From a virus, in IMG/VR virus record IMGVR_UViG_3300036804_000195, positions 1-56,281 of that record: a DNA stretch of 56,281 nt. The stretch is one strand, 5' to 3'. Positions 6,719 to 50,498 of the stretch are shown here, one piece after another. Every line of letters begins with the position of its first letter. The first letter of the stretch is position 1. A program made the position numbers and the translations under genes. The notes below the pieces were generated by a model. That model worked only from the letters and a program-made list of their open reading frames with translations. It had not been told where the DNA came from and made no database searches.

Positions 6719-6757
6719 GGCAGGGGCCGGCACGAATGCCAGCCCCTGCCTTTCCTT
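6719..6757. terminator. Strong convergent terminator
   Basis: GGCAGGGGC (6719-6727) pairs perfectly with GCCCCTGCC (6742-6750) and is followed on the plus strand by TTTCCTT. This is a classical intrinsic terminator for the rightward block, and its stem could also end the leftward late transcript arriving from the protease gene. Confidence 0.8.
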
Positions 6758-6810: not shown

Positions 6811-8013
6811 CTAGCCGCCGGCCTTCCGCCAGGCGAGGTAGGCGCGTTTCATCTGCTCGTTGTCGCCGATGTGGCGGAGCGCGGCCCACGGGTCGCCGAC
6901 GGCGGCCAGCGCCGCGTCCCGGTCCGACACCGGGGTGGGCGTCGGGGTCGGAGTCGGCGTCGGGGTGGGAGCGGGCGGCGCGCCCTGGAGGACGGCGAGC
7001 AGCCGGGCGCCGTCGGGGACACCGAACCCGGTGGCCTCGTCGCGGCCCGGGCCGGCGCGGAACGCGCCGTTGCTGCCGGAGGTCACGTCGAAGCACACGG
7101 TGGCGTTCGCGGCGACCTCGGAGGTGAAGTCGAACGATGCGCCGGCCAGCTCGAGCAGCCGCAGGTACAGGCCGAGGTGCAGCGGCGCGACCGCGCTGGT
7201 GCCGCCGAACACCGCCTGCTCGCCGTCGACGATGACCTGGTAGCCGGTCTCCGGGTCGGCGTTGCCGGCGATGTCGGGGACATCGCGGCCGGGGAACAGC
7301 ACCGACACGCCGCCGCCGCCAGCCGACGATGACGAGTCGTCCCAGACGACCTCGGCCGACCGCGCGCCGGCGGAGGTGAGCGTGAGGCGGGTGCCGCCGC
7401 AGCCGGTGACGTTCGGCGAGCTGGCCGGGTAGTCGACGTGCTTGCCCGACTCGCCGTCCCCGGACCCGGAGTCGCCGGACGCGGCGAAGATCTGGATCCC
7501 GGCTTTCTTCGCGGCCGCGAACGCCGCCTCCATCTTCGTGATCGTCGACGCCGACCACTCGTTTTCCGGGCCGCCCCAGGAGATGGAGATCGCGTCGACC
7601 TTGTCCGCGGTGGCGGCCTCGATCGCGGCGATGAAACCGGCGTCGGTGTTCGGAGCGAAGTACACGTTCAGGGTGGCGTCCGGAGCGAGCGCGCCGGCGA
7701 CCTCGATGTCCAGGAGGACCTCGCCGTCGGCGCCGTCCGGGCCGTCGCTGGTGTTCGAGCCGCCGGCGACCGGCTTCGACACCACGTGCGGCACGGGCAG
7801 GCCGAGCCCGCCGAAGTAGGCGTCCAGGTCCTCGGCGCCGAAGCCGCCGCCCAGCTCGATGATCCCGCCGGTGCGGCCCTTGCCGGTCGCAGCCGGGTAG
7901 TTGTAGGCCCCGGCGACCTGCAGCGGCGTGTACCCGCCGGCGGCCGCGAGAGGCTTGCGGAGGTAGGTGCTGGCGGCGATGAGCGGCGCGCCGCTCATGG
8001 TCGGTTCACTCAT
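6811..8013 (-). CDS. Sedolisin (S53) serine-carboxyl protease with C-terminal tail
   Basis: 400 aa from the ATG at 8013 (GAAAGGA ribosome site). The S53 catalytic set is complete: Glu98 and Asp102 in GEVLLDIEVAGALAP, oxyanion Asp181 in ASGDSGSG, nucleophile Ser273 in GGTSAVAP. The calcium-site region near the end of the core (DVTSGSNG, then TGFGVPDG) is also kept. Sedolisins are acid-active, usually secreted, and made with a ~190-residue prodomain; here there is no prodomain and no signal peptide. A (PT)n linker at ~348-362 leads to a 40-residue helical tail. Last gene of the late operon, overlapping the holin. It may act on the host envelope at lysis or ride in the virion; which one is inference. 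Confidence 0.9.
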   Translation of the reverse strand: MSEPTMSGAPLIAASTYLRKPLAAAGGYTPLQVAGAYNYPAATGKGRTGGIIELGGGFGAEDLDAYFGGLGLPVPHVVSKPVAGGSNTSDGPDGADGEVLLDIEVAGALAPDATLNVYFAPNTDAGFIAAIEAATADKVDAISISWGGPENEWSASTITKMEAAFAAAKKAGIQIFAASGDSGSGDGESGKHVDYPASSPNVTGCGGTRLTLTSAGARSAEVVWDDSSSSAGGGGVSVLFPGRDVPDIAGNADPETGYQVIVDGEQAVFGGTSAVAPLHLGLYLRLLELAGASFDFTSEVAANATVCFDVTSGSNGAFRAGPGRDEATGFGVPDGARLLAVLQGAPPAPTPTPTPTPTPTPVSDRDAALAAVGDPWAALRHIGDNEQMKRAYLAWRKAGG

Positions 8014-8263
8014 GGTCTGGCGTCCTTTCGCCCGGCGCGGCGGCCGGGACAGTCCGGTTCTGGTGGGGAGCGAGGTAGCCGGCGAGCAGCGCCAGGCCGC
8101 CGTCGGCGATGACATGCGCCAGGTAACCCGCGATCGCGGGAGGCGCGGAATGCCAGATCAGGTGCAGGCCGAGCTGCACGAGCGCCGCGGCGGCCGCGGC
8201 AGCGGCGCCGGAGGCTTTCACCTTGGGCGCGACCGGCCAGCGGCCGCTGCGGCGACGGCACAT
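8006..8263 (-). CDS. Holin-like small membrane protein
   Basis: 85 aa with a basic N-terminus, a hydrophobic Ala-rich segment (~residues 17-35), a second hydrophobic stretch (AGYLAHVIADGGLALLAGYL) and a charged C-terminal tail. Size, topology and position directly after the two cell-wall hydrolases fit a holin that would form the membrane lesions that end infection. Holins share no sequence, so the call rests on shape and context. The stop overlaps the protease ATG by eight bases. Confidence 0.65.
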   Translation of the reverse strand: MCRRRSGRWPVAPKVKASGAAAAAAAALVQLGLHLIWHSAPPAIAGYLAHVIADGGLALLAGYLAPHQNRTVPAAAPGERTPDHE

Positions 8264-8271
8264 GACCGGGG

Positions 8272-8469
8272 TTACTTGCCCTCGGCCGCGGCCACGAGCT
8301 GCGCGAACATCTGGTGCGCGGCCGCCTCGGCCTGCTCGGCGTCGGAGGCGATCATCGGCTCCAGGACCTCGATCCGCTGCTTCACCGTGTCCGCGAGCGC
8401 GGAGCCCTCGGCCTCGAGCTTGTCCTTGGCGGCCTGGAGGATGGCCAGGAACTGCTGAGCGAATGACAT
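8272..8469 (-). CDS. Small helical lysis-cassette protein
   Basis: 65 aa; ATG with a good ribosome site (AAGGAGA). The entire chain reads as amphipathic helix (FLAILQAAKDKLEAEGSALA, RIEVLEPMIASDAEQAEAAA), with no membrane segment. It sits between the amidase and holin genes. A helper or antiholin-like role is possible but not shown. Confidence 0.65.
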   Translation of the reverse strand: MSFAQQFLAILQAAKDKLEAEGSALADTVKQRIEVLEPMIASDAEQAEAAAHQMFAQLVAAAEGK

Positions 8470-8479
8470 TGCTTCTCCT

Positions 8480-9058
8480 TCAGTTGGCGTCAGCGCGCGC
8501 GGCCTGCTGGCCGGAGCGCAGGATCACGTCCGCCAGTGCGGCGGGCGTGACGTATCCGGGCCACCGGCCGTCGGAGAACAGGTGCACGCCCGCGTCGGCG
8601 TAGCACTGGTCGACGAGCTGGGAGCAGATCATGTGGCCGGTGGATCCGATGAACGAGCGCAGCCCCGGCGCCGGGATCCGGAGCCGGCGCATCGCCAGCG
8701 CCACATAGTCCAGCGCGGAGTAGCCGACCGGCGCGCGGCCCTCGACGTGCGGCCAGTCGGCGTACCGGTTCGCGGCCGCGGCGATGAGGGTGCGCTCCCC
8801 CGGCTTGAGGCCGATGACGCCGGTCGACCACAGGTCGCCGGGCTGCACGAGCGGGTACCGGCGGACCCGCTGCGCGCCGTGCGGCATGGCCTGCACGATC
8901 CACCCGTCGCCGGCGTAGACCAGGGCGTGCTCGTAGTTGCCGAACCCGTCGCCGTTGAGCCATTCGCCGGCCCGGATCAGCGGGCCGCCCGGACCGTGCA
9001 TCACCACCGCGGCGAAGTCGCCCGGCTGCACGTCGCCGGGATCCGGCTGCCCGGTCAC
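8480..9058 (-). CDS. Permuted NlpC/P60-like amidase/peptidase
   Basis: 192 aa. The GTG overlaps the lysozyme stop (GTGA). Residues 11-50 begin with QPGDFAAVV and reach YEHALVYAG with probable catalytic His44; the nucleophile is probably Cys145 in HMICSQLVDQCY. His before Cys is the permuted order of the YiiX/LRAT-like branch of the NlpC/P60 superfamily, which cleaves peptide or amide bonds in cell-wall or lipid substrates. The neighbouring lysozyme suggests the pair attacks peptidoglycan stems and glycan together. Long reading-frame extensions upstream are shadows of the lysozyme gene. Confidence 0.78.
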   Translation of the reverse strand: MTGQPDPGDVQPGDFAAVVMHGPGGPLIRAGEWLNGDGFGNYEHALVYAGDGWIVQAMPHGAQRVRRYPLVQPGDLWSTGVIGLKPGERTLIAAAANRYADWPHVEGRAPVGYSALDYVALAMRRLRIPAPGLRSFIGSTGHMICSQLVDQCYADAGVHLFSDGRWPGYVTPAALADVILRSGQQAARADAN

Positions 9059-9915
9059 GGCGCGCTGGTGTAGTAGACCAGGCCGCCGGGCATCCGGTTG
9101 TCGAGGTAGGCGCGGAACGCGGCGGCCTCGGCCGGGGTGGCATGCGCCAGCGTCACCTCGGTCAGGTGCGCGACCGTGGTGGCGCGCCGCGCGGCCAGCG
9201 TTGCCAGGCTGACCGACCCGTCGGCGACGCGGCGGAACGGGCCGGTCGGGGTGATGATCGCGGCGAGCTGGCCGAGGGTGCCGTGGAACACGCTGGTGTC
9301 GCATTTCCCGGCGCCGGGCCAGGAGGTGATGTGCGGGCCGAGCTGCCCGTCGGTGCATTGCCACAGCGTGTGCCCGACCGACGGCTCGGCGCCCTGGTAG
9401 GCGGCGATCCAGGTGCGCCGCCCGGAGGCGAACAGCGGGCCGAGCCCGTGGCCGAGGACGAACGCGACGTAGGAGTACAGCCAGGACCGCTGCGGCAGCG
9501 GCCGCGACGCGAGCCCGTACTCGGCGTCGGCGGCGGCCAGCCACGCGGCCGCCCGGCCGGCCTGACTGCCGGTGCCTTCCTCGAGGTCGCACACCGGGAT
9601 CTCCCACGGGTGCAGCGGCCCGGTGATCGCCCGCATCGCCTGGACGGAGGCGACCGGGTCCTGGCCGGCGCGCAGGTACTGGTAGATGCCGAGGAACCGG
9701 TACCCGGCCGCGGCCGCGGCGGCGCGGAAGTGCGCGAAGCCGTTGTCGGCGCGTGTGCCGTAGGCGACGCGGATGATCGCCGCGCCGCCGTTCTGCTTCT
9801 TGATGCCGGCCATGTCTGCGGGCTGCGGGTGGTCGGGCGGGTACTGGAACTCGGACAGGTCGGGGAGCAGGAGCAGCGGCGGCGAGGCGGCCGCGGACAG
9901 ATCTGGCGTCGACAT
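9055..9915 (-). CDS. GH25 family lysozyme (endolysin)
   Basis: 286 aa. The first ~200 residues are a GH25 (N-acetylmuramidase) barrel: Asp19 in LPDLSEFQ, the DLE pair (Asp110, Glu112) in VCDLEEGTG, WIAAYQG, and LWQCTDGQ near the end of the domain. It would cut the MurNAc-GlcNAc bond of host peptidoglycan. The C-terminal ~80 residues (from the repeated-looking ATLAARRATT and AHLTEVTL) probably form a small wall-binding module. No signal peptide, so export depends on the holin. Confidence 0.9.
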   Translation of the reverse strand: MSTPDLSAAASPPLLLLPDLSEFQYPPDHPQPADMAGIKKQNGGAAIIRVAYGTRADNGFAHFRAAAAAAGYRFLGIYQYLRAGQDPVASVQAMRAITGPLHPWEIPVCDLEEGTGSQAGRAAAWLAAADAEYGLASRPLPQRSWLYSYVAFVLGHGLGPLFASGRRTWIAAYQGAEPSVGHTLWQCTDGQLGPHITSWPGAGKCDTSVFHGTLGQLAAIITPTGPFRRVADGSVSLATLAARRATTVAHLTEVTLAHATPAEAAAFRAYLDNRMPGGLVYYTSAP

Positions 9916-49028: not shown

Positions 49029-50498
49029 TTATTTCCGGCGCCAGGTGATGGCGACGCGGCCGAGGTCGACGGACGGCGACCGGCCGCCGACCTGGGTCGC
49101 CCGGGACACGGTCACCGCGGCGATGAACATGCGCAGGAACTCGCGCTGCTCCCCGAGCGTCATCTTCGGCCACGCGGCCCGGGCGGCGGCGATGCCGTCG
49201 CGGGCAGGCGGCGGCCGCTTGTCGGCCAGCTCGGCGCGGAGCGCGGCTTCCCGGTCGGCGAGAGCACCGCGGGCAGCCTGCCATTCAGCCGAGGACAGGC
49301 CGCCTTCGCCCCACGCGGCGGCGAGGCTGGCGCGGCGGCCGTCGACGGCGGACAGCGCCGTGGTGATCTCGTCGCGGCGGGCCGCGTGCGCGTCCTCGGC
49401 GATCGCGTCGAGGAACTCCGGCTTGTCCAGGCGGGCGAACAGCTCGCCGGTCACGTGCGCCTCCACCGGCTCGAGCGACACGCCGGTGCAGGAGCGGCCG
49501 CCCTGCGCGGGGTGGCACACGTAGTACGGGACGTCGCGGCCGCCGCGGCGGGCGCCGCCCTTGAGCTGCTTGATCGACCCGGCCATCGGCGCGTCGCAGA
49601 CACCGCAGCGGATGAGGCCGCCCGACAGGAGGTAGCGGCGGCCAGGCGACCCGGTGTGCTCGGCGCCGACGGGGTAGGCGCCGCCGCCGGAGCGGGTGAC
49701 GGTGCGGGGCCCGGACAGGCGGGCGCGGCAGGCCTGCCAGGTGTCCTCGTCGAGGATCGGCTCCCACGCGCCGCGGCCGGTGATGACGCCGCGGTGCACG
49801 CGCCACCCGGCGACGGTCGGCCGGGTCAGCCAGTTACGCACCGACCTCGGCTGCAGCGCAGCGCCGCGGACGCCGGCCAGGCCGCGGGCGCGCATCGCCG
49901 CGGCGACCGAGGTCAGCGACCAGCCGGCCAGGACCAGCACGGCGGCCTCGCGGATCGCGTCGGCCTCGGCGGGCACGACGGCGTAGGTGCTGCCGCCGCC
50001 CTCGGCCGGCACGTGCCGGTAGCCGAACAGCACCGAGCCCGGCGCCAGGCCGCGGGCGGCGTTGTCGTCCAGGCGGTCGTGCACGCGTTTCTTCATCCGG
50101 CGGACCTCGGCGGCGGCGAGAACGGCCTTGATGCCGGCGATCTCATCGCCGACCCGGACGATGCCGTCGCGGCGCGTGTGGACCTCGTCGATGCCGGCGG
50201 CGACCAGCTCGGCGGCCAGCTCGAACCAGCCGATCTCGCGGCGCTGCAGCCGGTACTGCTCGATGGCCCAGACCTGGCTGACGGCGCCGGCGGCCAGGTC
50301 CTCGCGGAGCTTCTCGTAGCCGGGGCGCCAGACGTCGTCCTCGGCGGCCGACAGATCGTTGTCGGAGTAGACCACGACGGGCAGGCCCGGCCACACCACG
50401 GCGGCGTAGGCGCGGCCGTACCGCTCCTGCACGGCGACGCCCTCGGCGCGGCCGCTGCGGTCCTTGCTGATCCGGACATACAGCGCGACATTGCTCAC
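49029..50498 (-). CDS. int: Large serine integrase
   Basis: 489 aa; GTG start. The N-terminal resolvase/invertase catalytic domain has the nucleophile Ser11 in ALYVRISKDRSG, then VYSDNDLSAAEDD and AIEQYRLQRREIGWF. The recombinase domain includes GYRHVPAEGG, a hinge, and VRNWLTRPTVAGWRVHRGVITGRGAWEPILDEDTW. The zinc ribbon domain is present (LIRCGVCDAPMAGS and YYVCHPAQGGRSC) and a coiled-coil C-terminus follows (ALSAVDGRRASLAAAW). It integrates phage DNA site-specifically at an attB in the host and, with a directionality factor, reverses it. Confidence 0.95.
   Translation of the reverse strand: MSNVALYVRISKDRSGRAEGVAVQERYGRAYAAVVWPGLPVVVYSDNDLSAAEDDVWRPGYEKLREDLAAGAVSQVWAIEQYRLQRREIGWFELAAELVAAGIDEVHTRRDGIVRVGDEIAGIKAVLAAAEVRRMKKRVHDRLDDNAARGLAPGSVLFGYRHVPAEGGGSTYAVVPAEADAIREAAVLVLAGWSLTSVAAAMRARGLAGVRGAALQPRSVRNWLTRPTVAGWRVHRGVITGRGAWEPILDEDTWQACRARLSGPRTVTRSGGGAYPVGAEHTGSPGRRYLLSGGLIRCGVCDAPMAGSIKQLKGGARRGGRDVPYYVCHPAQGGRSCTGVSLEPVEAHVTGELFARLDKPEFLDAIAEDAHAARRDEITTALSAVDGRRASLAAAWGEGGLSSAEWQAARGALADREAALRAELADKRPPPARDGIAAARAAWPKMTLGEQREFLRMFIAAVTVSRATQVGGRSPSVDLGRVAITWRRK

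Follow-up and report, generated by a model that had tools for sequence, protein, structure and literature searches.

The S53 (sedolisin) proteases characterised so far are zymogens with a large prodomain, which is not itself part of the family definition. A 400-aa gene in a virus record from IMG/VR (positions 6811–8013, minus strand, ATG at 8013 and stop at 6811) encodes such a protease with no prodomain at all, and raises the question of how a phage makes and restrains the enzyme, and for what use. The sedolisins studied so far work in acid; their prosegment is described as a folding aid, and a linker is removed at low pH (PMC6278154). In human TPP1 the prosegment is both inhibitor and chaperone (PMC2914745), so that its loss could impair the folding of a phage S53 protein. 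A phage making a prodomain-less S53 protease must solve folding and self-damage in another way.

Gene Layout of the Phage Record

The window analysed here is the whole virus record IMGVR_UViG_3300036804_000195 (56,281 nt), in which we identified tailed-phage head and tail genes and a serine integrase gene. The integrase gene (window 49029–50498) indicates that the phage is probably temperate. An actinobacterial host is suggested by the G+C content of 70–75% and by a portal protein distantly related to mycobacteriophage portals. The late genes are on the minus strand and include a GH25 muramidase endolysin (9055–9915), a 192-aa protein similar to the protein adjoining the endolysin in contig L011 (8480–9058), a 65-aa gene of the same cluster with no assigned function (8272–8469) and a holin-like gene of 85 aa (8006–8263), which overlaps the start of the S53 gene by 8 bases. 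An AAAGGA-like ribosome site lies ahead of the S53 ATG. Judged by eye, the 192-aa protein is perhaps a permuted NlpC/P60-type amidase; PHROG 1128 labels it enoyl-CoA hydratase-like, a doubtful name.

The first-pass annotation of this DNA had placed the protease as the last late gene, directly after a holin. It is indeed the final minus-strand gene ahead of a convergent operon, and is followed by a strong 14-bp hairpin (6719–6750, minus strand; z-score −3.96 for the 126-nt stretch), which is a probable transcription end between the two operons. The holin part of the statement stands less firmly. One or two hydrophobic stretches occur in the 85-aa product, yet Pfam and PHROG searches gave no holin match for it, and the label therefore rests on position and hydropathy.

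Family Membership, Active Site and Predicted Fold

In a phmmer search against the PDB the window protein matched kumamolisin-As (E 2e-80) and sedolisin (E 2e-19). Pfam also reports a Peptidase_S8 match (41 bits, cut-off 21.8), since S8 and S53 are related. Membership of S8 (subtilisin) was rejected, as the protein has Glu98, Asp102 and Ser273 in the S53 arrangement instead of an Asp-His-Ser triad, and S53 structures match the model far better than S8 structures do. Within the catalytic core (residues 24–343; 6985–7944, minus strand), Glu98, Asp102, Asp181 and Ser273 (codons 7720–7722, 7708–7710, 7471–7473 and 7195–7197, minus strand) align exactly with E78, D82, D164 and S278 of kumamolisin, which gives the Ser-Glu-Asp triad and the oxyanion Asp of S53. 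Glu53 and Trp146 correspond to E32 and W129 in the same alignment.

The predicted calcium-binding region runs from Asp309 to Asp325 (7039–7089, minus strand) by alignment to kumamolisin-As, with D309, V310, G321, G323 and D325 at kumamolisin positions 316, 317, 334, 336 and 338. By this alignment, the positions of the single calcium site that S53 enzymes have towards the C-terminus of the core are kept. An AlphaFold model built on 31 phage proteins has a pLDDT of 86.6, with most of the core above 90. Its 17 best PDB matches are all S53 enzymes, with 1sio at 1.2 Å rmsd. Because the S53 alignment, the fold and the calcium positions are all kept, the window protein is very likely catalytically competent. 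The initial reading as an S53 protease, with the same four residues in sedolisin-type motifs and a calcium-loop pattern near the core end, is thus borne out by PDB homology, by the alignment and by the fold comparison with kumamolisin that it had proposed. The first of the two outcomes that it had named as refuting, a fold of another kind, did not arise, since the predicted fold is S53.

Prodomain, Leader and a Deleted Loop

A domain search for Pro-kuma_activ found no prodomain anywhere in the window record or in 15 other records of phages with prodomain-less forms, while the control record L018 did give the domain. A prodomain encoded by a separate gene was also looked for in the phage records and not found. 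Hydropathy showed no signal peptide or hydrophobic N-terminal segment in the window protein, and the original claim that it lacks both prodomain and signal therefore holds.

We compared the phage proteins with 80 relatives fetched from species genomes, and 79 of these, that is all the non-phage ones, encode a prodomain. Two genes considered as prodomain-less cellular forms (L080 and L068) were dismissed, as prodomain sequence precedes a start that is either broken or placed late. The sole prodomain-less match in a cellular genome (L065) is on a prophage-like contig of Mycolicibacter heraklionensis strain Davo and is the same as viral contig L029; no further prodomain-less copy was found among 401 genomes of the Mycolicibacter family.

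In place of the prodomain, the window protein has an N-terminal leader of 23 residues with a TYLRKP motif (residues 1–23; 7945–8013, minus strand). Of 54 phage leaders, 30 have a Y-hydrophobic-basic motif of this type, where shuffling gave 8.8 on average and at most 18; the excess is inflated by the shared ancestry of the phage members. The motif occurs in 4 of 50 cellular linkers. A further difference from the cellular enzymes had been missed in the first-pass annotation. At residue 241 (junction at 7285–7293, minus strand) the window protein has a deletion of ≈24 residues corresponding to the LPxWQ...GR loop, and this loss is common to the window protein and eight related phage proteins, whereas the cellular enzymes have the loop.

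Other N-terminal arrangements were seen among the phage proteins. Three (L017, L026 and L223) have a shortened N-terminal domain of ∼80–120 aa instead of a full prodomain, which for L026 has no Pfam match, and one from outside the actinophages (L025:9908-11287) has a Sec-type hydrophobic N-terminus before an HYRRP leader.

Linker and C-Terminal Tail

The core is followed by a (PT)n linker (approximately residues 345–362; 6928–6981, minus strand) and a C-terminal helical tail (residues 363–400; 6814–6927, minus strand), in agreement with the first description. The model places three helices in the tail (364–372, 375–382 and 386–399) with pLDDT values of 50–67. A linker with a short C-terminal module is common among the phage S53 proteins; others carry a short tail of a different, beta type, or none at all.

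If the tail served for docking to the phage, it might be expected on further phage proteins. A search for it gave no support to this: no other protein of the S53 loci carries it, and known phages yielded no confident match. The tail is not clearly phage-only either, since a prodomain-bearing protein from a Frankia MAG (L066) ends in a tail that weakly resembles that of L052 (E 0.01–0.2). This Frankia gene (L066:8127-9710) lies in a chromosome-like context and may be related to the donor lineage.

Relatives Among Phages

Scans of IMG/VR for close relatives with a single protein as query gave no match. Three alignment-based scans were therefore used, as the single-protein query was insufficient, and ∼50 distinct contigs besides the window were found to carry prodomain-less S53 genes. 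E98, D102, D181 and S273 are invariant in all 31 aligned phage proteins, which are 33–55% identical to the window protein, and such invariance across divergent proteins implies that the enzyme has been kept active. In the tree, the window protein is inside a supported clade of nine actinophage-like phage proteins, and the hypothesis that all prodomain-less phage forms arose once was not rejected (p-AU 0.66). The first-pass annotation had named a lone host-derived insertion as the other outcome that would count against it; with ∼50 phage contigs and a phage-only clade, the protease is instead a phage lineage and has long been resident in phages.

Sequenced phages give a different picture. Three different queries found no S53 match among 50,697 GenBank phages, a search in which the portal protein was found in 704 records, and BFVD gave S53 matches only from giant eukaryotic viruses. 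The earlier remark that no phage system built on this family was known agrees with our finding none in PHROGs, in BFVD, among the 50,697 GenBank phages or in the open literature searched.

Another set of viral S53 proteins, distinct from these, keeps the full prodomain (L033, L038, L039, L042–L044, L046, L048, L050, L051, L053, L057 and L058). Most of these end in a YPKxNYGxR-type motif, and two are very long (L050, 1430 aa; L051, 1132 aa). In L059:8399-10813 a prodomain-less phage S53 gene is split after SISWG, adjoining an active-site motif, by an intein-like insert (LAGLIDADG_3 at E 7e-8 and a weak Intein_splicing match).

Lysis Genes Near the Protease

An endolysin lies within one to four genes of the S53 gene in 11 of 15 contigs of the actinophage group (the window with its GH25 enzyme, L007, L008, L011, L012, L014, L021, L029, L052, L149 and L152). 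It may be upstream or downstream and is of several unrelated types; the actinophage members L009, L010 and L178 have no endolysin nearby. All seven contigs with a GH25 or Amidase_2 domain, which as whole contigs span 41–139 kb, have one copy each, at most 1.4 kb from the S53 gene. A rough uniform-placement estimate for these seven is ∼4e-9, which is overstated because the contigs are related and the counts are not independent.

Elsewhere the settings vary. In the second large phage clade the PHROG tally of 97 S53-neighbour genes is mixed, with only two endolysin matches, and outside the actinophages a holin is downstream of the S53 gene in L040 and a weakly Rz-like spanin gene upstream in L181. 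Within single loci of the actinophage group, L151 has the order holin (phrog_443), endonuclease, S53, and L152 the order S53, SNase, GH25; the nuclease genes (L151:7555-7962 and L152:9197-9559) directly adjoin the protease gene. Holin proximity was rejected as a general rule, as hydropathy showed no enrichment of small membrane genes near S53 genes over more distant positions (14% vs 17% and 15% vs 11%). The first-pass interpretation, release at lysis to break wall or S-layer proteins or packing into virions through the tail, is thus upheld in part, with wall and S-layer proteins still candidate substrates. The link to lysis genes recurs in the actinophages, and these data support its conservation in that group only. 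In L186:7701-9029 (identical in L187 and L209), outside the actinophages, a two-TM, holin-like N-terminal segment, for which no convincing family match was found, is fused in-frame to the S53 domain.

Possible Roles of the Protease

We consider it an even call that this S53 endopeptidase, specific to phages and lacking a prodomain, forms part of the lysis module in actinophages, is latched by pH and is released at lysis. The protease would be made late, in the cytoplasm, and would fold without a prodomain. S53 catalysis requires protonated carboxylates, so the near-neutral pH of the cytoplasm would keep the enzyme nearly inactive and take the place of the inhibitory prodomain; we infer this to be the simplest latch for such a protein. 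When holin and endolysin open the cell, the protease would be freed without a signal peptide and would reach the wall and the outside. In acid soil or in an acidified wall zone it may then cut envelope or debris proteins, its likely substrates, and thereby help to free the virions. A broader proposal can be made only tentatively, namely that near-neutral pH and a basic leader of 15–25 residues (Y-hydrophobic-K/R) together replace the prodomain, and that a lysis-released acid protease would be a further class of actinophage lysis enzyme beside holin, endolysin and lipid-esterase.

The main rival is a virion-associated protease, docked to the tail tip through its C-terminal tail and cutting surface proteins at adsorption. 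Lysis and tail genes adjoin in such phages, so proximity cannot separate the two roles and keeps this rival alive: the S53 gene directly follows minor-tail or tail-like genes in L007, L008, L011, L012, L014 and L029. The frequent linker and short C-terminal module would also suit a docked protein, as would the inclusion of S53 domains in proteins of 1100–1430 aa in some large aquatic-type phages, but searches with these long proteins turned up no tail family. Three findings weaken the case for docking through the tail: a weakly similar tail occurs on the prodomain-bearing Frankia protein in its chromosome-like context, neither other proteins of the loci nor, with confidence, known phages were found to have it, and many phage members have no helical tail. 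We regard a virion role as possible but doubtful.

The protease could also be cargo, a general extracellular enzyme freed at lysis that digests surrounding proteins or defence factors without contributing to lysis. One protease secreted by actinobacteria is reported to lower phage infectivity (PMC13175485), and extracellular proteolysis can therefore matter to phages. The variable neighbours outside the actinophages, the SNase and endonuclease genes beside the protease in L152 and L151, and the many cellular S53 relatives from soil and bog bacteria fit this explanation, but the repeated placement beside a single endolysin in actinophages does not, and we hold it to be unlikely. Lastly, the phage could have captured a host protease recently, with prodomain and function since lost. 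This would be in line with the S53 genes common in soil bacteria and with the lack of any match to the phage gene in 50,697 GenBank phages. It is already disfavoured by the open frame, by catalytic residues that do not vary among 31 divergent proteins and by the phage-only clade of nine, nor is one origin for all the prodomain-less phage forms rejected; we give it very little credence.

Comparison With Known Systems

With a natural prodomain-less phage lineage one could ask directly what purpose the prodomain serves, and whether pH alone restrains such an enzyme. Actinobacterial envelopes are complex, and a protease recurring next to endolysins would mean that phage lysis of these bacteria also includes the cutting of proteins. 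The contrast between no S53 match in 50,697 GenBank phages and ∼50 environmental contigs shows how much of lysis biology the cultured phages may fail to cover, and the prophage-like contig in a cultured Mycolicibacter strain makes the system testable.

The closest known enzymes are kumamolisin and kumamolisin-As (MEROPS S53), with which the window protein shares the fold (rmsd 1.2 Å and TM 0.87 by target length, for the predicted model), the catalytic residues, the E32–W129 pair, the calcium site and ∼48% core identity. The window protein differs in having no prodomain of ∼180 aa, no signal and no 24-residue loop, and adds the phage leader, the (PT)n tail and a phage late-gene setting. Pseudomonas sedolisin (E 2e-19, 31% identity) and human tripeptidyl-peptidase 1 (E 1e-7, 24% identity) share family and active-site layout, but unlike the phage protein they are secreted or lysosomal zymogens with prosegments. 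The best viral structure matches are S53 proteins of giant eukaryotic viruses (Homavirus and Barrevirus, 40–43% identity), which differ in their length of 741–972 aa, in infecting eukaryotes and in having no lysis-cassette setting. The accessory genes of actinophage lysis cassettes are similar in lying on the late strand and adjoining endolysin and holin-like genes, but have no S53 member in the PHROGs matches, GenBank phages or papers searched. The protease is thus a phage-specific, prodomain-less variant of a known family, associated with lysis genes in actinophages, and this association points to a lysis-associated phage enzyme of a type not yet described.
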